From Lachnospiraceae bacterium (GTDB taxonomy: Bacteria; Bacillota; Clostridia; Lachnospirales; Lachnospiraceae), in the NCBI GenBank assembly GCA_029006155.1, contig JAQXGF010000133.1:1-64000 (forward strand): a stretch of 64,000 bases of DNA, written 5' to 3'. The position numbers and the translations under genes were made by a program. The notes under the pieces were generated by a model. That model was not told the DNA's origin. It did no database searches and worked only from the letters and a program-made list of their open reading frames with translations. This document shows, piece by piece, positions 35,840 through 62,674 of this stretch. Positions within the stretch are counted from its first letter, which is position 1, and each line of letters begins with the position of its first letter.

Positions 35840-37639
35840 TTACTGCGTTCCAAGACGCGCATAGACTTCTGCAGACAACTTCTGAATACAGCTGATCGCC
35901 GTACCATTATCCTGTAAATCTTCACTCAATACACAAAGAATATATGCATGATCTTCATGCTCTACGATGGCAATATCATTTTCCACATACTGCCCGTAAT
36001 CACCGGCCAGTTCGCCGGTTTTATTCGCCGTAGTCACATCTGTATCCGAAATACCTGCCGGAATTTTCCCCGTGCGAGTCTGATTTTTTAAATATTCCAG
36101 CATTTTTCCGGATGCCTCTGCATTTACACATGTCCCCTGCCAGATCGATGCCAGCAGATTCCGGCAGTCGTTCGCAGAAGTCCAGTTATCTCCAGCGGTC
36201 GGCATTTCCAGAAACTTTCGTCCGAACGAAGTCTGTGTGTAACCGTTTTCCCTGCAAAATTCATTGACCACTGCCATACCGGCTGTCGCATCTCCGCCGC
36301 CGAGCCGCTCCAGCAGCGTGTTGGCTGCCGTATTATCGCTGACCGTAATCATATCCGTGATAAGCTGTTTTAATTCCCCGTCATAGCTCTCTTCCATAGA
36401 AATATGGCGATCCTCGGAAGCCGGATAGCAGACGCGGTCATAGATTGTCGCCATTAAAAATACTTTCATGACACTTGCGGAGGCCATCTGGACATCTCCG
36501 TTCAGATCGCCCTTTGCACCCGTTTTCAGATCCAGCACGCTGACCGCCCACTGTTCCTTCTGTGCTTTGGCCGGATAAACAAATTCTTCACCGAGCACTT
36601 CCAGCAGTGCGTTCATACGCTCCGCCGCCTCTTTGGGCACCTCCTTCTTTTTCATACCCTTTTTTTCAAAATACGCATCAATCCCATCGGCAATTCCTTC
36701 GGCCATCAAGGGCTGTACCGAAGCATCCGACATCCGAAGATCATCCGACTGATTCGTCATAAAACCCATTTCCAGAATCATCACCGGAAGCTTACTCCAG
36801 TTGATGCCGGTCATATTGTCATAGTACTGAATACCAAGCGAAGAAAAGGATGCCTTTTCACAATATGCACTCAAAATACATTCTGCCAGCGCATAGGAAT
36901 CTTCTGCCAGTTCCGGAATATATGGATTATTGGAAGAAGGCACCATCGCCAGCGCCCCCTGAACACTCGCATCATCCGAACCGTTCGCATGGATCCGAAC
37001 GTAAATGTCACCGCCTTCTTCGTAGGCCATCTGCGCACGTTCCGCATTGCTGATCGCTGTATCATTATCTTCTCTTGTGAGAATGACACGGTAACCTCTT
37101 TTTTCCAGCTCCTCCCGCAGTAACAGAGAAATTTCCAGATTCAGCTCATATTCAGCCTTGCCGCTGAAGCTTCCCTGCGTCCCGGTCGTCGCTTTTGCTT
37201 TCATCTCGGAAGATCCAGGTCCATTTGGCTCCTTTTCGCTCATATCAACCCAGTTTCCCTGATGCCCCGGATCGATCGCCACGACCAGCTGCTCGGATTC
37301 TGTTTCTGATTCTGTTTCTGATTCTGTTTCAGATTCCTTCTCCATCTCCGTCGTTTTCTGACGATTTGTCTCCCTGGTAATCAACAGATCCTGTTCCTGT
37401 TCCGATTCCGGCTCTGTCTCTGCTCTACCGGTCTGTTCCTGTTCTGACCCTGCCATCGTCAGCATCTCCGTCACCGCTTCCGTCTGGCCGTTCTTTTGTT
37501 CTTCTTGTTGCGTGGACGCATTCCTTTGTGTGAATCCGATCAATACACCAAACCCAATCAGTAAGATCAAAACAACAGCCACCAGTATCCCGGTAACCGG
37601 CAGCTCTCTTTTCCGACCTCCTGGACGTTTTTTCCCCAT
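35840..37639 (-). CDS. Fusion of N-acetylmuramoyl-L-alanine amidase and class A beta-lactamase-like serine hydrolase
   Basis: A 599-residue secreted or membrane-anchored protein. One N-terminal helix (ILVAVVLILLIGFGVLIGF) and an acidic Glu/Ser/Thr linker lead to an Amidase_3 domain (about 118-330) with the zinc His in DPGH (about 124), RIHANG, and catalytic Glu in MILEMGF (about 290). A second domain (about 340-599) carries all three class A serine beta-lactamase motifs in order and spacing: SVMK (about 389), SDN (about 433) and KTG (about 539). Amidases remove stem peptides from glycan; beta-lactamase-fold hydrolases may act on penicillins or on peptidoglycan peptides. Whether the Glu166 equivalent is present is unclear (RKFLEMP is the only candidate). 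Preceded by AAAGGAGG. Confidence 0.88.
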   Translation of the reverse strand: MGKKRPGGRKRELPVTGILVAVVLILLIGFGVLIGFTQRNASTQQEEQKNGQTEAVTEMLTMAGSEQEQTGRAETEPESEQEQDLLITRETNRQKTTEMEKESETESETESETESEQLVVAIDPGHQGNWVDMSEKEPNGPGSSEMKAKATTGTQGSFSGKAEYELNLEISLLLREELEKRGYRVILTREDNDTAISNAERAQMAYEEGGDIYVRIHANGSDDASVQGALAMVPSSNNPYIPELAEDSYALAECILSAYCEKASFSSLGIQYYDNMTGINWSKLPVMILEMGFMTNQSDDLRMSDASVQPLMAEGIADGIDAYFEKKGMKKKEVPKEAAERMNALLEVLGEEFVYPAKAQKEQWAVSVLDLKTGAKGDLNGDVQMASASVMKVFLMATIYDRVCYPASEDRHISMEESYDGELKQLITDMITVSDNTAANTLLERLGGGDATAGMAVVNEFCRENGYTQTSFGRKFLEMPTAGDNWTSANDCRNLLASIWQGTCVNAEASGKMLEYLKNQTRTGKIPAGISDTDVTTANKTGELAGDYGQYVENDIAIVEHEDHAYILCVLSEDLQDNGTAISCIQKLSAEVYARLGTQ

Positions 37640-38615: not shown

Positions 38616-40349
38616 TTAGAAGAAGTCTTCTCCCTGCAAGGCATCTACTCCCTCTTCCCCGGTCCGCACTTTAATGACATTCTGAACATTGTAAACAAAG
38701 ATCTTTCCGTCTCCAATATGTCCGGTATACAGTGCTTTCTTTGCTGTCTCAATGACCTTCTCCGGCGCCACTTTGCTCACAACGACATCCACCTGAATCT
38801 TCGGGAGCAGATTCATATCCATCTGTACGCCACGGTAAAACTCCGCTTTTCCTTTCTGGATGCCACAGCCAAGTACATTCGTCACCGTCATGCCAGTCAC
38901 TCCAATACCATTCAAGGCATCCTTCAGATCATCGAACTTGCTCTGTTTCGCCACGATCGTAATCTTCGTCAGGTGCGTATCGCTCGCAATCGGAGCAGTC
39001 TCAGACCGCACCTGCACCGGTACGGCATCGTCCACCGGAACAGCCTTCTTCGGAAGCTCTGTCGGAATCGCAGTCGTACCGCTTCCGCTGAAGTTATTGA
39101 TGCTGGAGGTCAGTGCAAAATCCGCATAGGCCGATGCAAGTCCATGCTCATGAATGTCCAGTCCCTCGATCTCCTCCACTGCCGAAGCCCGAAGTCCGAT
39201 CGTATGCTTTAATACATTGAAAATAATCGTCATTGTCACTGCGACCCAGGCGATGACCGATACTACACCAAGGATCTGCAGTCCGAGGAAATGAACGCCT
39301 CCGCCATAAAACAGACCAAGCTTCTCGCCATTTCCAAAATCATAGTATGCAAACAGTCCTGTGAGGATCGTTCCAAGCGCTCCACAGATCCCATGAACGC
39401 CGACGGCACCGACCGGATCGTCCACCTTCAGCTTCTGATCTACAAACTCAATTCCAAATACAACTGCAAAGCCTGCAATGATACCGATCAATGCTGCTCC
39501 GGTCGGCGTAACCGTGTCACAGCCTGCCGTAATCGCTACCAGACCTGCCAGAGAACCATTCAACGTCATGGAAACATCCGGCTTCTTATAACGTACCCAT
39601 GTGATAATGAGAACCGTCACAGTCGCCATCGCTGCTGCCAGATTCGTCGTATAGAAAATCCGTGCCGCATTTGTCGCACCGTCTCCGGATAACGCAACGG
39701 TCGAGCATCCGTTAAATCCAAACCAGCAGAACCAGAGAATAAATACGCCAAGTGCCGCAAGTGTCATGCTGTGACCAAGAATCGCATTCGGCTTGCCGTT
39801 TTTATCATATTTTCCAATACGAGGTCCGAGAATCGCTGCACCCACAAATGCTGCGACGCCGCCTACCATATGCACGGCCGTAGAGCCAGCGAAATCATGG
39901 AAGCCCATCTGTGCCAGCCAGCCACCGCCCCAGATCCAGTGTCCGGAAATCGGATATACAAACAAACTGATCAGCGCACTGTAAATGCAGTATGACGAAA
40001 ACTTCGTCCGCTCTGCCATTGCGCCTGACACAATCGTCGCAGAAGTCGCACAGAAAACCGTCTGAAAAATCATCGTCGTATAATCCGTGCTCTTCATGCT
40101 GAACAGATCCAGCCCGCCAATCAGGGCGCCTGTCCCACCAAACATGATACCAAACCCGATAAACCAGTAGATCGGTGTACCAATACAGAAATCCATGAGG
40201 TTCTTCATGACAATATTTCCGGCATTTTTCGCACGGGTCAGACCAGTCTCAACCATCGCAAATCCTGCCTGCATGAAAAACACGAGTGCCGCTCCCACAA
40301 GCGTCCAGCCAATGTCCACATTCGTTGCCAAAGCCCTTAATTCTTCCAT
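38616..40349 (-). CDS. amt: Ammonium transporter with fused C-terminal PII domain
   Basis: A 577-residue protein. Residues about 1-425 form an Amt/Rh channel (AGFAMVETGLTRAKN; pore His regions HMVGGVAAFVG and GVHGICGALG; GGGWLAQ). After a short linker (about 430-458) comes a complete PII (GlnB/GlnK) domain, from TKITIVAK to IFVYNVQNVIKVRTGEEG, which normally is a separate protein that plugs Amt according to ATP/ADP and 2-oxoglutarate. The T-loop reads YRGVQMDMNLLPK; the uridylylated Tyr51 found in GlnK (RGAEY) is missing. Control is therefore probably by effector binding, not covalent modification. Strong promoter and leader hairpin upstream. Confidence 0.93.
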   Translation of the reverse strand: MEELRALATNVDIGWTLVGAALVFFMQAGFAMVETGLTRAKNAGNIVMKNLMDFCIGTPIYWFIGFGIMFGGTGALIGGLDLFSMKSTDYTTMIFQTVFCATSATIVSGAMAERTKFSSYCIYSALISLFVYPISGHWIWGGGWLAQMGFHDFAGSTAVHMVGGVAAFVGAAILGPRIGKYDKNGKPNAILGHSMTLAALGVFILWFCWFGFNGCSTVALSGDGATNAARIFYTTNLAAAMATVTVLIITWVRYKKPDVSMTLNGSLAGLVAITAGCDTVTPTGAALIGIIAGFAVVFGIEFVDQKLKVDDPVGAVGVHGICGALGTILTGLFAYYDFGNGEKLGLFYGGGVHFLGLQILGVVSVIAWVAVTMTIIFNVLKHTIGLRASAVEEIEGLDIHEHGLASAYADFALTSSINNFSGSGTTAIPTELPKKAVPVDDAVPVQVRSETAPIASDTHLTKITIVAKQSKFDDLKDALNGIGVTGMTVTNVLGCGIQKGKAEFYRGVQMDMNLLPKIQVDVVVSKVAPEKVIETAKKALYTGHIGDGKIFVYNVQNVIKVRTGEEGVDALQGEDFF

Positions 40350-54243: not shown

Positions 54244-55557
54244 TTAAAATAGTACACTCACTTCCGTCCCGACCCCGACCTGGCTCTTCAGATCGAGCTT
54301 GGCGTGGTGCTGGGCTACGATGTGCTTTACGATCGCGAGGCCGAGGCCGGTGCCTCCGGTCTGCTTGGAACGGCTCTTATCTACCCGGTAGAAGCGCTCA
54401 AAGACGCGTTCCTGGCTCTCCTCCGGGATGCCGATACCGGTATCCTTGACGGTCAGCAGCACATGATCCCCGTGCATCCCGACACTCACACGGACACTTC
54501 CGCCCGGCTTGTTGTAGCGGATCGCATTGTCGCACAGATTGTAGAGCAGCTCTTCAAGCATATCTTTATTTCCATTTACGGTACAGTCCGTTCCCTGACA
54601 TGAGATCTCAAGGCCGTGGTTGGCTGCGTTCAGCTTTAAGGACTGCACACAGCCATTCGCCAGCTCGTACAGGTTCAGCGGCGCAAATGACACCTCCATA
54701 TTGTCGGCATCCAGCTCTGAAAGGCGGATGATGTCGTTGATCAGCGTCAGCAGACGTTTCGCATTGCGATGAATCTCCGATGCAAAACGCTGTACCTCAT
54801 TTTCCCCGGCCAGACCGGTCTCGATCAGCTCCGCATACCCGGAAATAGAAGTCAGCGGTGTCTTCAGCTCATGGGAAACGTTGGCCGTAAACTCCTGCCG
54901 CATTTTCGCACCCTTTAAAATATCTTCGTGCTGTTTCTGAATCGTTGTGATAAACGGCACCAGCTCGATATATGTGTCTGTGCCGTCGATGTTGTCGATG
55001 TCACCGGCCAGCTTCTCGATCGGGTGAATAATGCTGTTCGTCAGATAGCGGGACAGCATCATGCAGACAACAAACATCAGAATCCCGACACCGATGATTC
55101 CGTAGAGCGTCTTCTGGAACACGCTCCAGATATTGTTTGCCTCCTTGCTGATGCGAAGTACATCTCCGTCATCCAGTATCATCGCATAGTAGTACATATC
55201 CCGGTCGATGGTATCGGAATGGCGGATCGCATAGCCACTGCCGCTTTTCTCCGCCTCCTGCACCTCCGGACGGTCTGCATGATTGCCCAGCACTTCATCG
55301 CCTGTCTGGCTGTCATAGAGCACATCGCCTTTTGCGCTGATGACCGTCACCCGCACATCCGGATCGGTTCCGCGATAGTGTTCGCTCAGCTCCTCTCCAG
55401 AGGACGTCATCCCGCAGATCACTTCCGCATAGTTTTTCAGATCATTTAAAATCTGCTGTCGATACATATGATGGAAGACCGCAATCGCCATGCCAATGGT
55501 CGTCACCAGAGTGAGAAATACCGCCAGCAGCATATAGCGGTTGATTTTCTTTTTCAT
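54244..55557 (-). CDS. phoR: Sensor histidine kinase, PhoR-like
   Basis: A 437-residue kinase with two membrane helices (about 9-28 and 155-175) flanking an extracellular sensor domain of about 125 residues, then a linker, the phosphoacceptor VSHELKTPLTS (His about 229), N box NLCDNAIRYNKP, and GTGLGLAIVKH. It lies 17 nt after its response regulator and next to the phosphate uptake genes, which supports the PhoR role; no PAS domain is obvious. Confidence 0.87.
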   Translation of the reverse strand: MKKKINRYMLLAVFLTLVTTIGMAIAVFHHMYRQQILNDLKNYAEVICGMTSSGEELSEHYRGTDPDVRVTVISAKGDVLYDSQTGDEVLGNHADRPEVQEAEKSGSGYAIRHSDTIDRDMYYYAMILDDGDVLRISKEANNIWSVFQKTLYGIIGVGILMFVVCMMLSRYLTNSIIHPIEKLAGDIDNIDGTDTYIELVPFITTIQKQHEDILKGAKMRQEFTANVSHELKTPLTSISGYAELIETGLAGENEVQRFASEIHRNAKRLLTLINDIIRLSELDADNMEVSFAPLNLYELANGCVQSLKLNAANHGLEISCQGTDCTVNGNKDMLEELLYNLCDNAIRYNKPGGSVRVSVGMHGDHVLLTVKDTGIGIPEESQERVFERFYRVDKSRSKQTGGTGLGLAIVKHIVAQHHAKLDLKSQVGVGTEVSVLF

Positions 55558-55574
55558 CGCAGTTCTCCCTGTGT

Positions 55575-56258
55575 TTAATTATTCTCTCCCGTCAGCATAT
55601 ACCCCACATTTCTGACTGTCCGGATCATCGTCCCGGCGCTGCCGAGCTTCTGCCGCAGCGTCTTGATATGCATATCCAGTGTCCGGGATTCCCCTTCAAA
55701 ATCGGTACCCCACACACGGTCGAGAATCATGTCACGGGATGCCACGATGCCCGCATTCAAAAGCAGGAGCTTTAAGAGCTCATACTCCTTATAGGTCAGC
55801 TCACACGGCTCATCATTTACAAAGACCGCACGCTTCTCATCGTCCATAAAGATCGGCCCAAGGCGGATCATCCGTTCCTCTTCCATACCGCGGCTTCTGC
55901 GCATCAGCGCCTTGACTCTTGAGATCAGCTCCATCACACCGAACGGCTTTGTAATATAATCATCCGCTCCGATATCCAGCCCTTTGACCTTGTCCAGCTC
56001 CGTCGTCTTTGCCGTCGCCATAATGATCGGAAGCTTTCGCGTATCTGCCGCATGGCGCAGCTTTTTTACAATGCTCAGTCCATCCTCATCCGGAAGCATG
56101 ATATCCAGCAATACCAGTGCCGGCACCTTCTCCTTCAGCCTTGCGTAAAAATCGGAGGCACATTCAAAGCCCTGTACCTCATAGCCCGCATTTTTCAGCG
56201 CAAACATCTCGATCTCCCGGATGTTCTCATCGTCTTCTACTATGTAAATCATTGCCAT
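55575..56258 (-). CDS. phoP: OmpR/PhoB-family response regulator, PhoP-like
   Basis: A 227-residue regulator: receiver domain with EDDENIRE, phosphoacceptor Asp in LLDIMLPDEDG (about 51), MATAKTTE and switch Lys in DYITKPFG, then a winged-helix DNA-binding domain (CELTYKEYELLKLLL, TLDMHIKTLRQKLG). Likely binds the PhoP-type boxes before nptA and pstS. ATG at 56258 is preferred; a GTG three codons earlier overlaps the ribosome site. Confidence 0.9.
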   Translation of the reverse strand: MAMIYIVEDDENIREIEMFALKNAGYEVQGFECASDFYARLKEKVPALVLLDIMLPDEDGLSIVKKLRHAADTRKLPIIMATAKTTELDKVKGLDIGADDYITKPFGVMELISRVKALMRRSRGMEEERMIRLGPIFMDDEKRAVFVNDEPCELTYKEYELLKLLLLNAGIVASRDMILDRVWGTDFEGESRTLDMHIKTLRQKLGSAGTMIRTVRNVGYMLTGENN

Positions 56259-56421: not shown

Positions 56422-58245
56422 TCAGCCTGCAGTCATCCGTGCACGCATATTCACTTTCGGCGTACCCTTGATGCGCGCCGGCAGCGCATACTCTTTTTCA
56501 TACTCCTCAAACTGCTCACGGAACTGCTTGTTATCTTCCTCCTTCAGAGAATTCAGATAAGAATGCCGCTCGTACTCATCGTTGTCCGCCTGTATCAGAC
56601 AGACTGCAATGTTCGAACAGTGATCCGCGATTCGCTTATAGCTCGTCGTCAGGTCAGAAAGGATAAATCCGAGCTCGATCGTGCAGCGTCCCTCGCGCAG
56701 TCGGTCGATGTGGCGCTTCTTCATCTCATCGCCCAGATCGTCAATGACCTCCTCCAGAGGCTCGACCTTCCCTGCCAGCGCCAGGTCCTCGTCCTGCATC
56801 GCCTCCATCGCGATCTCCACGACTTTGCGCACCGCTGCGGAAAAGACTTCCAGCTCTTCTACTGCCGCTTCCGAAAACGACAGGTTCTTATCATAAATTT
56901 CCTTTGCCGCACTGGCAATGATCACCGCATGATCGGAGATACGCTCGATATCCCCGATGCTGTGCAGCAGTACCGAGAGCGTATGGCTGTCCTTCGTCTG
57001 CATCTCATTCTTTGCCACCTGTACCAGGTATGTGCCGAGCCGGTCTTCGTACTGATCCACAATCGTCTCATTTTCATGCACCAGAGCGACCTTTGTCTCG
57101 TCATAATCGTGCAGCAGCGACATTGCCGTATCCAGTGCCTCGCGGGTCACTTCTGCCATATGTGCACAGGCGACACGGCACTGATCCATCGCAAGCGCCG
57201 GATTCTCCAGGAAACGGTTATCCAGTGCCGATAATCCCTGCAGTGCGCCTGCCGTACGCTCCTCGCCCTTGCCATCGCGCACGGTAAGGATCGCCAGACG
57301 CTCCAGTACCCGGTGGAACGGAAGCCAGATCACAGTCGCAAAAATATTAAATGCGGTATGAATCACAGCGATTCCTGCTGCATTTGCAGAATCCTGCAGG
57401 AACGAAAAATGTACAAACAGATTCGCTGTATAGAACAGAACCATAAATACAAGCGTACCGATCAGGTTGAAATACAGATGTACAAACGCCGTACGCTTTG
57501 CATTTTTCTTCGCACCGATCGCGGAGATGAGCGCAGTCACGCACGTACCGATGTTCTGGCCCATGATGATCGGAAGCGCTGCACCGTAAGATACCGCTCC
57601 GGTCACACACAGTGCCTGCAGAATACCGACGGATGCCGATGAACTCTGGATGATCGCCGTCAGCAGCGCACCTGCCAGCATACCAAGGATCGGGTTTTTA
57701 AACATCAGAAGAATGTTCGTAAATTCCGGTACATTTGCAAGTGGCTTCACCGCACCACTCATTGTCTCCATACCAAACATCAGCACAGCAAATCCGATCA
57801 TGATTGATCCGGCATCTTTCTTCTTATCTTTTTTGGAAAACAGCAGGAAGCAGATGCCGATGATCGCCAGAATCGGGGAAAACGAAGACGGCTTGAGCAT
57901 CTTGATCCAGAAGCTGTCTCCTTCCAGTCCGGACAGACTCAGAATCCAGGATGTGATCGTCGTACCGATGTTCGCACCCATAATGATGCCGACCGCACGC
58001 TGCAGCGTCATAATGCCGGAGTTTACAAATCCGACTACCATGACCGTCGTCGCTGACGAGGACTGAATTACCGCCGTCACCGCCGCGCCGAGCAGTACTC
58101 CGCGGATCGTACTCGATGTCAGCTTTTCCAGAATCTTCTCCAGACGTCCTCCTGATGCCCTCGTAAGGCCATCTCCCATGACATTCATTCCGTACAGGAA
58201 CAATGCCAGTCCACCAAGCATGGTCAGAAAACTAAAAATATCCAT
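56422..58245 (-). CDS. nptA: Na/Pi cotransporter with C-terminal PhoU-like domain
   Basis: A 607-residue transporter of the NptA/YjbB group. Two inverted Na/Pi-cotransporter repeats with the QSSSATTVMVVG and QSSSASVGILQAL motifs, about nine helices, and from about residue 340 a helical PhoU-like domain (HSIGDIERISDHAV, YKRIADHCSNIAV). A secondary, low-affinity phosphate route beside Pst. Promoter with four PhoP-type boxes. Confidence 0.92.
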   Translation of the reverse strand: MDIFSFLTMLGGLALFLYGMNVMGDGLTRASGGRLEKILEKLTSSTIRGVLLGAAVTAVIQSSSATTVMVVGFVNSGIMTLQRAVGIIMGANIGTTITSWILSLSGLEGDSFWIKMLKPSSFSPILAIIGICFLLFSKKDKKKDAGSIMIGFAVLMFGMETMSGAVKPLANVPEFTNILLMFKNPILGMLAGALLTAIIQSSSASVGILQALCVTGAVSYGAALPIIMGQNIGTCVTALISAIGAKKNAKRTAFVHLYFNLIGTLVFMVLFYTANLFVHFSFLQDSANAAGIAVIHTAFNIFATVIWLPFHRVLERLAILTVRDGKGEERTAGALQGLSALDNRFLENPALAMDQCRVACAHMAEVTREALDTAMSLLHDYDETKVALVHENETIVDQYEDRLGTYLVQVAKNEMQTKDSHTLSVLLHSIGDIERISDHAVIIASAAKEIYDKNLSFSEAAVEELEVFSAAVRKVVEIAMEAMQDEDLALAGKVEPLEEVIDDLGDEMKKRHIDRLREGRCTIELGFILSDLTTSYKRIADHCSNIAVCLIQADNDEYERHSYLNSLKEEDNKQFREQFEEYEKEYALPARIKGTPKVNMRARMTAG

Positions 58246-58478: not shown

Positions 58479-59162
58479 TTACTGCAGCACCGCAAACACA
58501 TCATTGACTTCTTTCCCGCTCCGGTGTTTTCCGGTCAGGGAAAATTCTACCCACTCTGCCACATTCGTCGCATGGTCGCCGAGCCGCTCATAATACTTTG
58601 CAATCATCAGAAGATCTAAGGTCTGGTCATTCGTGTAGATTCCTTCTGCCGAACACCGGCTGATCTCTTTGCGCACATCGACAAACAGTGCATCCAGTTC
58701 ATCATCCCGGTCGATCACTGCACGCGCCATGTCCAGATCTTTCTCCACATAGGACTCCACACTGTGATTAATCATGTCCATTGCGATCTCTGCCATCTTC
58801 GCAAGCTCGATCTCCTTTACCGGTACCTGGATGCTTCCGGTCTCCAGAATCTCTGCAATGTCCGTCGCATGGTCGCCGATCCGTTCCAGATCGGTAATCA
58901 TTTTGAGTGCAGAAGAAATCAGACGCAGATCCGACGCTACCGGCTGCTGCTGTAAGAACAGCTGAATGCAGTCCGCCTCGATCCGGCGCTCCTTCGCATC
59001 GATCTCCCGTTCCAGCGCGTCGATCGATTTTACGAGCTGCTCCCGCTCCTGTTCCGATGCCAGCAGCCGATACGTCTTCTGAATCGCTTCTTCACAGAGC
59101 ATTCCCATCTCAAGCAGCTCTCTTTGCATCTGCTCCAGCTTTTTCTGATAATTTTCTCTCAT
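58479..59162 (-). CDS. phoU: Phosphate transport regulator PhoU
   Basis: A 227-residue protein of two three-helix bundles, with the metal-binding-like motifs ERIGDHATDIAE and ERLGDHATNVAEW. It links Pst activity to PhoR signalling. Two nt after pstB; last gene of the operon. Confidence 0.95.
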   Translation of the reverse strand: MRENYQKKLEQMQRELLEMGMLCEEAIQKTYRLLASEQEREQLVKSIDALEREIDAKERRIEADCIQLFLQQQPVASDLRLISSALKMITDLERIGDHATDIAEILETGSIQVPVKEIELAKMAEIAMDMINHSVESYVEKDLDMARAVIDRDDELDALFVDVRKEISRCSAEGIYTNDQTLDLLMIAKYYERLGDHATNVAEWVEFSLTGKHRSGKEVNDVFAVLQ

Positions 59163-59164
59163 AA

Positions 59165-59914
59165 TCAGCCGAACCTCCCCGTAATATACTCCTCTGTTTT
59201 CTTATTCTTCGGCATCGAAAACAGCGCCATTGTATGATCGTACTCCACGACCTCGCCGAGCAGGAAAAATGCCGTCATATCCGAGATACGGGACGCCTGC
59301 TGCATGTTGTGAGTTACCATGACGATGGTATATTTCTTTTTCAGCTCCACGGCCAGATCCTCGATCCTAGCTGTCGAAATCGGATCCAGCGCCGAGGTCG
59401 GCTCATCCATCAGAAGCACCTCCGGCTGTACGGCCAGTGCACGGGCAATGCAGAGTCTCTGCTGCTGTCCGCCGGACATGCCGAGCGCGCTCTTTTTCAG
59501 ACGGTCTTTTACCTCATCCCAGATCGCCGCATCGCGCAATGCCTTCTCTACGATCTCGTCAAGCTTTGCCTTGCTGCGGATGCCATGTGTCCGCGGTCCG
59601 TAGGCGATATTGTCATAAATACTCATCGGGAACGGATTCGGCTTCTGGAACACCATGCCGACCCGTTTCCGGAGCACGTTGACATCCATATTTCCGTAAA
59701 TATCTTCCCCGTCGAGCAGCAGCTCTCCGGTAATTTTACATCCCTCTACCAGATCATTCATCCGGTTTAAAGATTTGAGCAATGTGGACTTTCCGCAGCC
59801 ACTCGGCCCGATAAACGCCGTGATTTTATTCGCCGGAATTTCCAGATTGATATCCTTTAGCGCATGGAAATCTCCGTAATACAGATCCGTATGCTTTACA
59901 TCTATTTTTCCCAT
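59165..59914 (-). CDS. pstB: Phosphate ABC transporter ATP-binding protein PstB
   Basis: A 249-residue ATPase: Walker [14 protein letters not shown], the PstB-typical LNRMNDL, Q-loop [12 protein letters not shown], signature [15 protein letters not shown], Walker [13 protein letters not shown], and H-loop VTHNMQQA. Operon with pstA upstream. Confidence 0.97.
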
Positions 59915-59938: not shown

Positions 59939-60856
59939 TTACGCGTTGCGTCCTTTGGTCAGCTGCTTTGCAAGCAAATTGGAAAGACCGTTTAATGCCA
60001 GTACAAATACAAGCAGTACCACTGCCGTCGCATATGCCTGATCCATATACAGACCCTCACTCGAAAGCACATACATATGAACCGCCAGTGTCCGTCCGGA
60101 TCCCATCAGATTCGGAATCTTCGCCACGGAGCCTGCCGTATACAGAAGTGCTGCCGTCTCACCGACAATTCTTCCGGTCGCCAGAATGACTCCGGATAAA
60201 ATGCCCGGGACTGCGGTCGGCAATACCACACGAAAAATCGTGCGCAGCTTTCCGGCTCCGAGTCCAAAGGATGCCTCCCGGTATGCATCCGGTACCGAGA
60301 GCAACGCCTCCTCCGAGGTACGGATGATCAGCGGCAGGATCATGATGACAAGCGTCAATGCGCCAGCCAGCAGGCAATAGCCCCATTTCAGCGCCGTACA
60401 GAAGAACAGCAGTCCGAACAGGCCATATATAATAGAAGGAAGTCCGGAGAGTGTCTCCGCGGTAATCCGGATCAGCTTTACGATCTTGCTTCCTTTTTTT
60501 GCATATTCTACCAGATAGATTGCAGTAAATACGCCAAACGGAATCGCAATCAGCAACGAGAGTACTGTGATAATCAGCGTATTAATCAGCGCCGGCATCA
60601 GGGAAGCATTTTCTGAATTATAGGTCAGCGAAAACAGCTCCGGTGAGAGATGCCCGATTCCACGTACGAGGATGAACCCGACCAGAAACAGCATGACAAG
60701 CATCATCGCGATCCCGGACAGCCAGACAAGCAGCTCTGCCAGTGCAGAAAGCGGATGTCCCTTCCATTTCTGTATCCAGCGCGAGAATCCAGAGCTCTTT
60801 TCTTTTTTCTGCGGAGCCGCAAGTACCCCTGCTCCATCATTTTGTATATTTGCCAT
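59939..60856 (-). CDS. pstA: Phosphate ABC transporter permease PstA
   Basis: A 305-residue permease with about six helices and the coupling-helix motif EASFGLGAGKLRTIFRVVLP near residue 205. A hydrophilic N-terminal extension of about 35 residues is present. Follows pstC by 23 nt. Confidence 0.95.
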   Translation of the reverse strand: MANIQNDGAGVLAAPQKKEKSSGFSRWIQKWKGHPLSALAELLVWLSGIAMMLVMLFLVGFILVRGIGHLSPELFSLTYNSENASLMPALINTLIITVLSLLIAIPFGVFTAIYLVEYAKKGSKIVKLIRITAETLSGLPSIIYGLFGLLFFCTALKWGYCLLAGALTLVIMILPLIIRTSEEALLSVPDAYREASFGLGAGKLRTIFRVVLPTAVPGILSGVILATGRIVGETAALLYTAGSVAKIPNLMGSGRTLAVHMYVLSSEGLYMDQAYATAVVLLVFVLALNGLSNLLAKQLTKGRNA

Positions 60857-60879: not shown

Positions 60880-61737
60880 CTACTCTGCAATTGCCTTGTT
60901 CTTCAGTGCAGACACAAGCAGATTGATCAGCAGGATAAATACAAAGAGCACCACTCCGGTCGCAATCAGCGCTTCCCGGTGCAGATCCGTCGCATAGCCC
61001 ATCTCGATGACGATATTTGCAGTCATCGTCCGCAGTCCCTTGAACAGTCCCTGCGGCATCCAGGTCTGATTACCTGCCACCATGATCACTGCCATCGTCT
61101 CTCCGATCGAACGGCCAATGCCGAGCACGATTCCTGCCATAATTCCGGATTTTGCTGCCGGGAATACGGTAAAGAATACGCTCCGCTCATGCGTCGCGCC
61201 AAGTGCCAGCGCACCTTCGTAGTAGCTCGTCGGCACACTGCGCAGTGCCGATTCCGCCACGCCGGTAACGGTCGGGAGAATCATAATGCCGAGCAATATC
61301 GATGCGGTCAGCATCGTGCTGCCATCGTGTCCGGTCAGTTCATTCATCAGCGGTACGATCACGACCAGTCCGAAAAATCCGTAGACAACCGACGGCACAC
61401 CCGCCATCAGATTGACCGTCGTCTTGAAGATCGGATACAGCTTTTTCGGGCAGTAGAAGGCGAGAAATACCGCCAGTAAAAGTGCAGTCGGCACGCCCAC
61501 CACGATCGATCCGGCTGTCACATAAATGCTGCCGAGGATGAACGGGAGAATGCCATACAGGTTATTGGATGGCTTCCACTTCTGTCCAAACAGAAATTTT
61601 GTAATACCGATCTCTCCGATTGCCGGAATACCATTCCGGAACAAAAAGAGACAGATCAGAGCGACTGCCAGCACCGACGCACACGCTGCGATAAAAAACA
61701 GGACGTGCATCAGTTTTTCCACAATTCTTTGTCTCAT
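60880..61737 (-). CDS. pstC: Phosphate ABC transporter permease PstC
   Basis: A 285-residue permease with about six helices and the coupling motif EGALALGATHERSVFFTVFP. LINLLVSAL near the end. Preceded by an intergenic hairpin that may reduce expression relative to pstS. Confidence 0.95.
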   Translation of the reverse strand: MRQRIVEKLMHVLFFIAACASVLAVALICLFLFRNGIPAIGEIGITKFLFGQKWKPSNNLYGILPFILGSIYVTAGSIVVGVPTALLLAVFLAFYCPKKLYPIFKTTVNLMAGVPSVVYGFFGLVVIVPLMNELTGHDGSTMLTASILLGIMILPTVTGVAESALRSVPTSYYEGALALGATHERSVFFTVFPAAKSGIMAGIVLGIGRSIGETMAVIMVAGNQTWMPQGLFKGLRTMTANIVIEMGYATDLHREALIATGVVLFVFILLINLLVSALKNKAIAE

Positions 61738-61765
61738 AAATATCGGTTCCTCTCAGGTCCGTAGA

Positions 61766-61792
61766 AAAATGTCCCGCGCAACCGCAGGACAT
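61766..61792 (-). terminator. Partial terminator between pstS and pstC
   Basis: ATGTCC-x-GC and GC-x-GGGACAT form a stem followed by TTTTTC on the minus strand. Such a site would let pstS be made in excess of the permease genes. Confidence 0.75.
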
Positions 61793-61819
61793 CTTTTCAC
61801 AACTTTGTCATTGACTGAA

Positions 61820-62674
61820 TTATTTCAGCTCTTCCCAGGTAGTAATGTTTCCAGTGTAGATATCCTTTACCTGCTCGCTTGTGAGCTCATCGATACCTGC
61901 ATCGTTGTTTACGATAACTGCGATACCATCTTTTGCGATAACGGTAGCGGTCAGTCCTGCTTCTGTCTCACTGTCTTTCAGATCACGGGATGCCATTCCG
62001 ATGTCGCACAGACCATCGATTGCAGACTGCATACCAGTCGTAGAATCGCTCTGCTGTACCTCAATGTCTACCTTATCATTGACTGCCTTATAAGCCTCTG
62101 CCAGCTTCTCCATAACCGGTGTAACGGAAGAGGAACCAGCTACAACGACCTTGCCCTCTACATCGGTTCCCTGATACTCTGCCTCATCACCAACGGAAAT
62201 GTAACCGTTGTCTGTGATGACCTGCTGGCCTTCCTTGCTCATAATGAAGGAAATGAAATCTGCTGCTGCATCGCTTACTTCTGCGGTCGTCGCGATATTG
62301 AACGGACGAACGACCTTGTAGCTGCCATTCTCAATGTTCTCAGCCGTTGCCTCTGCTCCGTCGATCTTGACTGCCTTTACCGTATCATTCAGAGATCCGA
62401 GGGAGATATATCCGATCGCATTGACATCCTTCTCTACGGTTCCAAGCATAACGGAGGTGCTGTTCGTGATCTTTGCTGCTTCTGTCGTGTTATCTACTTT
62501 ATTTCCGTCAGCATCTTTTTCCTCAACACCGAACAGCTCAATGAATGCTCCTCTTGTACCGGATCCATCCTCTCTGGATACAACTGTGATATCGCCCTCA
62601 GCTGCTGCCATTGCGGTCATTCCGATGCTTGCTGTCATAAGTGCTGCCATTGCTACTGCTACTGATTTCTTCAT
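61820..62674 (-). CDS. pstS: Phosphate-binding protein PstS, circularly permuted
   Basis: A 284-residue secreted binding protein for the Pst transporter. The signal peptide (MKKSVAVAMAALMTASIG..AMA) has no lipobox Cys. After it comes what is normally the second half of PstS: ITVVSREDGSGTRGAF (about 28-45) through FISFIMSKEGQQVI and NGYISV. Then, from about residue 172, comes what is normally the first half: GKVVVAGSSSVTPVMEKL, QQSDSTTGMQSAIDG, CDIGMASRDL, ending VKDIYTGNITTWEELK. In E. coli PstS the order is the reverse. All phosphate-binding motifs are kept. Promoter with three PhoP-type boxes. Confidence 0.93.
   Translation of the reverse strand: MKKSVAVAMAALMTASIGMTAMAAAEGDITVVSREDGSGTRGAFIELFGVEEKDADGNKVDNTTEAAKITNSTSVMLGTVEKDVNAIGYISLGSLNDTVKAVKIDGAEATAENIENGSYKVVRPFNIATTAEVSDAAADFISFIMSKEGQQVITDNGYISVGDEAEYQGTDVEGKVVVAGSSSVTPVMEKLAEAYKAVNDKVDIEVQQSDSTTGMQSAIDGLCDIGMASRDLKDSETEAGLTATVIAKDGIAVIVNNDAGIDELTSEQVKDIYTGNITTWEELK

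Follow-up and report, generated by a model that had tools for sequence, protein, structure and literature searches.

A circularly permuted, lipobox-less phosphate-binding protein in a Lachnospiraceae genus where many binding proteins appear to lack a lipid anchor

Introduction

The binding proteins that serve ABC importers in Gram-positive bacteria are generally regarded as anchored to the membrane. The Gram-positive lipobox follows the consensus [LVI][ASTVI][GAS]C, as set out in PMC5817068. The nearest described permuted binding protein is Tp0684/MglB-2 of Treponema pallidum, a circularly permuted ('Type Ic') sugar-binding protein that still binds its ligand, and whose authors suggest that the permuted topology is possibly an adaptation to membrane anchoring (PMC4990184). 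Our literature searches, which covered titles and the openings of abstracts, returned no PstS described as permuted, and as far as they reach the permuted PstS topology is already represented by a solved structure, 4h1x, that we did not find described as such. Here we analyse a PstS encoded in a 64,000-nucleotide stretch of Lachnospiraceae DNA (the window), for which an original prediction had proposed that the two halves of the protein are exchanged and that its mature N-terminus lacks cysteine.

Results

A permuted pstS is the first gene of a pst operon

PstS is a protein of 284 aa encoded on the reverse strand (61820..62674) and identified by profile and solved-structure matches; re-reading the sequence returned the same position, strand, length and motifs as the original prediction. 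A Cys-free, Sec-type signal peptide with an AxA end (residues 1-25, 62600..62674), whose cleavage site (AMA|A or AAA|E) is a call from pattern only, precedes the canonical C-terminal half, here in first place (residues 28-171, 62162..62593) in which residues 33-41 form the phosphate loop, SREDGSGTR. The canonical N-terminal half comes last (residues 172-284, 61823..62161), with GSSSVTPV at 180-187 and TTWEELK at its end. On the same strand follow the permease genes pstC (60880..61737; TIGR02138) and pstA (59939..60856; TIGR00974), the ATPase gene pstB (59165..59914; TIGR00972) and phoU (58479..59162; TIGR02135), each above its profile's cut-off. Domain matches then identify a Na+/phosphate symporter with a PhoU domain (56422..58245) and a two-component pair (54244..56258; response regulator 55575-56258, histidine kinase 54244-55557), all also on the reverse strand. 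From its position, this pair is perhaps PhoP/PhoR.

An open frame of 379 codons on the forward strand (61526-62665) lies largely antisense to pstS; it probably arises from codon usage and does not represent a gene. Elsewhere in the window, a single reverse-strand frame of 577 aa (38616-40349) joins an ammonium transporter to a P-II nitrogen regulator, and another (35840-37639) joins an N-acetylmuramoyl-L-alanine amidase domain to a domain of the Beta-lactamase2 family.

The two halves of PstS are exchanged

The Pfam profile PBP_like_2 (positions 3-125) is matched by PstS residues 167-282. In its natural order the protein matches TIGR02136 in two stretches, the better of which places residues 166-283 on profile positions 31-155 with 188.8 bits, and with the halves restored it matches in one stretch over positions 41-294 of 295 with 199.1 bits; neither order reaches 206.6 bits, the curated cut-off. 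Solved canonical structures gave the same picture. The natural-order protein is matched in two stretches by 1twy, 4q8r and 4gd5, and in the latter two residues from about 175 to 283 fall on the front of the chain and residues from 26 to about 160 on its end. The original prediction had suggested aligning the rejoined halves with known PstS; when this was done against solved chains, ten canonical ones (4q8r, 4gd5, 1twy, 4exl, 4n13, 4ecf, 4pqj, 4omb, 9l8j and 4jwo) each matched in one nearly full stretch. The structure 4h1x behaves the other way round, being colinear with the natural order (residues 23-284 on 5-265, E 5.7e-68) and breaking into two stretches against the restored one. The order-swap test works both ways, and chance is excluded as an explanation.

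Taken together, the profiles and solved structures assign about residues 166-283 to the canonical first half and about residues 26-165 to the second, as had been predicted. Homology to solved PstS extends over both lobes, in single stretches once the order is restored and in the natural order for 4h1x, and the structure alignments place the change as an exchange of two segments with no loss, the ends joining at one break. In 82 permuted frames, 0-9 residues extend beyond the homologous part at the C-terminus.

The ligand motifs said to remain are all there: the phosphate-loop residues (Arg, Ser-Gly-Thr, the first-strand Ser/Thr and Asp) are present in columns that are invariant among 42 aligned permuted PstS, the full invariant set being R34, G37, S38, G39, T40, S181, S183, S211 and D224. 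Positions other than R34 are presumably equivalent to known phosphate contacts. R34 itself aligns with Arg125 of 4q8r in the structure-chain alignment, and PMC12421899 names this Arg among the phosphate contacts.

The permuted order occurs in many lineages

A scan of species genomes with the full-length protein found 184 stretches encoding a relative, of which 80 were kept, and all 80 have the swapped order; a full-length permuted query favours permuted relatives, so 80/80 is not a prevalence. By their titles, the kept relatives belong to Lachnospiraceae, Oscillospiraceae, Peptococcaceae, Negativicutes and Coriobacteriia. The search of other genomes for the same domain order that had been proposed thus succeeded, and the permutation is present in many lineages instead of being a peculiarity of this genome. 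These relatives also bear on whether the order reflects misassembly or a decayed gene. The source assembly is indeed fragmented (150 contigs), but the order is identical in the 80 loci of other assemblies, isolates and a complete chromosome (L037) among them, the PstS frame is intact, and the crystallised protein 4h1x is colinear with it and shares its break point. We therefore rule this reading out, giving it next to no chance, in line with the earlier view that the permutation is real.

In an even sample of the phylum, permuted PstS was found in at least 14 of 398 genomes, our own included. Some PstS match occurs in 278 of the 398, and among the matches listed most rows split like canonical PstS; profile matches confirmed the order at 13 loci counted as permuted and 14 counted as canonical. 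Within the window's genus, 33 of 47 genomes carry a permuted primary PstS (one split by contig ends). Among the other 14 are one with a divergent permuted copy alone, four with a canonical PstS, two with a very divergent PstS in canonical order, one with a fragment and six with no match.

Trees were built after near-identical rows had been removed, from 160 to 128 and then to 81. A quick tree of 247 columns, omitting four long rows (L193, L194, L189 and the second copy of L016), places the permuted rows, among them 4h1x and L125, on one side of a branch with an SH-aLRT of 99. The quick tree of all 81 rows requires three changes for the permuted group. In a more careful tree, which leaves out L193, L194 and L189 and keeps the long second copy of L016, the group requires two changes, and of 200 bootstrap trees only 22 percent manage with one; a single permuted clade is not rejected by the test on this tree (p-AU 0.476). 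The trees thus allow a single origin of the permutation but do not prove it. Independent origins appear not to be needed, and L125, on its long branch, could be a second origin. The second copy of L016 (Lachnospiraceae UBA5902, frame at 1495) is a very divergent permuted PstS that lies near the first and has a relaxed lipobox match.

Two genomes, G400 (L123) and G357 (L124), encode two whole PstS fused head-to-tail as a single frame (halves N-C-N-C), 531 codons long in the former and 544 in the latter, with a lipobox present by eye. This is the architecture expected midway through a permutation by duplication and subsequent loss of the outer halves, and its occurrence shows that such a halfway form exists in nature. 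That either fusion gave rise directly to the permuted clade is not supported: their repeats group with each other, with support of 100, near a canonical PstS, and the fusions arose separately.

PstS lacks a lipobox, independently of the permutation

The signal peptide of the window's PstS ends in TAMAAAEGD, contains no Cys and does not fit the lipobox consensus, in agreement with the predicted Cys-free mature N-terminus. The frame stays open for 46 further codons upstream of the ATG, which is directly preceded by AGGAGA. A lipobox hidden by a misplaced start was considered and rejected, as this upstream part offers no ATG, GTG or TTG and its residues contain no lipobox signal peptide.

Among 133 permuted PstS sorted with a loose script, 96 have a lipobox, 35 lack one and two are unreadable, a count in which some loci were entered twice and the 96 include four doubtful genus entries (L005/L086, L093 and L094). 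The lipobox Cys precedes the RE.GSGT loop by a median of 25 residues (11-55), and in the lipobox-less class the AxA precedes it by 8 (8-12). Of the primary permuted PstS of the genus (n = 32), 29 have no lipobox-like Cys motif, 25 of them being Cys-free; one more has a lipobox-like Cys within the hydrophobic core and two are ambiguous (MSACAAEG). Lipobox patterns are found in all six divergent permuted PstS of the genus and in all four canonical ones, and these lipobox-bearing proteins look like later arrivals. For the 75 permuted PstS of L007-L080, the loose script left only L010 without a lipobox, with L042 and L070 unreadable; a stricter script added L013, a misreading (LAGC by eye), and the doubtful L040 (CAAC) and L047 (CSAC).

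The idea that the permutation is tied to the missing anchor does not hold, because beyond the genus a lipobox is present in most permuted PstS, and within it unrelated SBP_bac_1 proteins lack one too. Permutation and anchor loss are separate events, and the permutation is an inherited PstS topology.

Many other binding proteins of the genus lack a lipobox

Other binding proteins, examined as a control, show the same trait to some extent. Of the 34 SBP_bac_1 matches in the genome itself, 30 could be read. An AxA end with no lipobox-like motif was found in 21 and a lipobox-like Cys followed by AxA in six; the remainder are two strict matches (L164, a lipoprotein by eye, and L167, with its Cys at the start of the core) and one apparent permease fusion. 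Nineteen of the 30 are wholly Cys-free. Four binding proteins of this genome (L145, L163, L142 and L143) have a Cys near the usual lipobox place and then AxA, and resemble half-lost lipoboxes. In 29 other genomes of the genus, the best SBP_bac_1 locus has no lipobox-like motif in 26 cases (21 Cys-free), a Cys followed by AxA in two, and is unreadable in one. A further 40 loci from nine genus genomes yielded 33 readable by eye, all with an AxA-like end and four with a lipobox-like Cys ahead of it; L348, L350, L354, L362, L367, L382 and L383 were excluded as unreadable or in the wrong frame.

By comparison, SBP_bac_1 proteins from 20 other genera of the family have a lipobox in 56 of 60 cases (40 strict, 13 relaxed and three with an Ala-rich linker by eye) and are unreadable in four, with 40 of the 60 loci coming from seven genera. 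Three of these (L234, L276 and L287) share the script label for Cys-then-AxA with some genus loci, and classes were assigned by eye: they are counted as lipoproteins, since their hydrophobic core terminates at the Cys and the AxA falls within the linker, and the genus loci are not, since there the AxA closes an uncharged stretch before acidic residues. Lipidation may still occur in proteins whose Cys lies ahead of the AxA. The median distance from first strand to cut site is 4 residues in the genus (91 of 99 loci) versus 29 in the other genera (57 of 60; p 1e-22), with cut sites being pattern calls, not trained predictions.

Other families of the genome are mixed. Nine of 13 SBP_bac_3 matches were read, all with a Cys in the scanned stretch, although L208 was misread there and lacks a lipobox on re-reading; a script assigns seven of the nine to the strict or relaxed lipobox class. 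Inspection by eye shows L211-L214 to look like classical lipoproteins, with a Cys and then an AxA-like end in L207, L209 and L210, and an AxA end in L206 and L208. The Peripla_BP_4 proteins comprise L170, L181 and L182 with AxA, L171 with a lipobox and L172 with a Cys and then an AxA-like end, again by eye; most other matches are regulators with no signal peptide. Lipidation is not gone from this genome, since LspA is present, and L164 and L171 both bear lipoboxes.

Of the further genomes read, that of L010, whose PstS also has no lipobox, shows none in the 8 SBP_bac_1 proteins read of 23. In Roseburia inulinivorans all seven read by eye (of 13) have one, as do all eight read by eye in Faecalicatena contorta (seven by script; of 12), and the three read of six in Anaerostipes hominis comprise one with a lipobox, one with none at the end of the hydrophobic stretch and one without a signal peptide. 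Titles and abstract openings yielded no precedent for lipobox-less binding proteins in Lachnospiraceae.

No retention device for unanchored binding proteins was found. In a search for C-terminal anchors in 67 SBP_bac_1 frames from our own, genus and G474 genomes, a second hydrophobic stretch occurred in two only, L164, which has the only LPxTG-like tail of the 67, and L168, apparently a permease fusion. Together these comparisons suggest that loss of the lipobox is common to many binding proteins of the lineage, which is unexpected for a monoderm.

Discussion

The swapped order, the homology, the operon, the absence of lipobox and linker, and the breadth of both traits in our samples can be read from the sequence. 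The explanation that we regard as likely is that of a normal phosphate-binding protein with an inherited permuted topology, exported unlipidated in a lineage of monoderms in which many binding proteins have shed their anchor. In such a protein the old C- and N-termini would be joined through a short linking stretch near ISVGDEAEYQGTDVEGKVVV, with new ends created at the lobe crossover, where TTWEEL now closes the chain and ITVVSRE follows the signal peptide. Judging by homology and the operon, the protein would still fold into the familiar clamp of two lobes, its phosphate loops correctly positioned, and would pass phosphate to PstCAB. PstS would be exported by Sec and most likely cleaved by signal peptidase I, which would leave it without a lipid anchor. 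Its anchor loss would belong to a change across the lineage, with many binding proteins, those of the SBP_bac_1 family most of all, having neither lipobox nor flexible linker. The unanchored proteins are probably soluble and loosely held in the wall space, akin to periplasmic binding proteins.

Gram-positive binding proteins are as a rule tethered to the membrane, and the signal peptide of PstS, hydrophobic and led by Lys with a peak hydropathy of 1.97, could stay uncut and serve as an anchor, leaving PstS tethered after all. We think this improbable, given that throughout the sampled genus proteins AxA-like ends stand directly ahead of residues that are acidic or small, and that the linker needed by a tethered lobe is missing (a median of 4 residues, compared with 29). 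Diderms typically make soluble binding proteins with no linker, which raises the alternative that the lineage has an outer membrane and that these are ordinary periplasmic proteins. Yet Omp85, the sole outer-membrane marker searched for, was found in none of the 47 genus genomes, with a control search positive in seven of 14 named genomes; five of the six nearest titled relatives are called Lachnospiraceae, which are monoderm, and we regard an outer membrane as very unlikely. We see equally little chance that PstS has left Pst transport for another role, for example as a secreted phosphate scavenger or sensor: it does appear to be released, and a two-component pair follows the operon, but the permuted pstS heads a pst operon that is complete, and no second PstS was matched in the genome (89.7 percent complete).

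Returning to a PstS exported without an anchor, we lean slightly towards the broader reading that this monoderm lineage of the Lachnospiraceae gave up the lipid anchors of many of its ABC solute-binding proteins, with signal peptidase I releasing them. This reading rests on dozens of SBP_bac_1 proteins and permuted PstS that have neither lipobox nor tether linker, in a lineage where the lipoprotein pathway remains. Without an anchor, the binding proteins of a monoderm are liable to escape into the medium. If the reading is true, uptake would rely on binding proteins that diffuse freely in a periplasm-like wall space, or on shared extracellular ones. A genus with many seemingly anchor-less binding proteins provides a natural experiment on what makes anchoring necessary, and on whether the wall space of a monoderm can serve as a periplasm.

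Among known systems, canonical PstS of the TIGR02136 type (4q8r, 4gd5, 1twy) are homologous to the window's protein in both halves and have the same phosphate motifs, with the halves in the opposite order. The colinearity of PstS2 of Streptococcus pneumoniae (4h1x) with residues 23-284 indicates the same permuted order and break point. PstS2 was crystallised as a phosphate-binding protein and, unlike the window's PstS, is streptococcal; we take it to be a lipoprotein, and our literature search found no paper naming the structure 4H1X. Treponema MglB-2 differs in having a Type I fold, a sugar ligand, another break point and a lipid anchor (PMC4990184). Unlike Treponema as described there, the window's genus retains a permuted form without a lipobox, and this PstS is relevant to the view that permutation is there for the sake of tethering, as the permuted form persists where the tether is gone.
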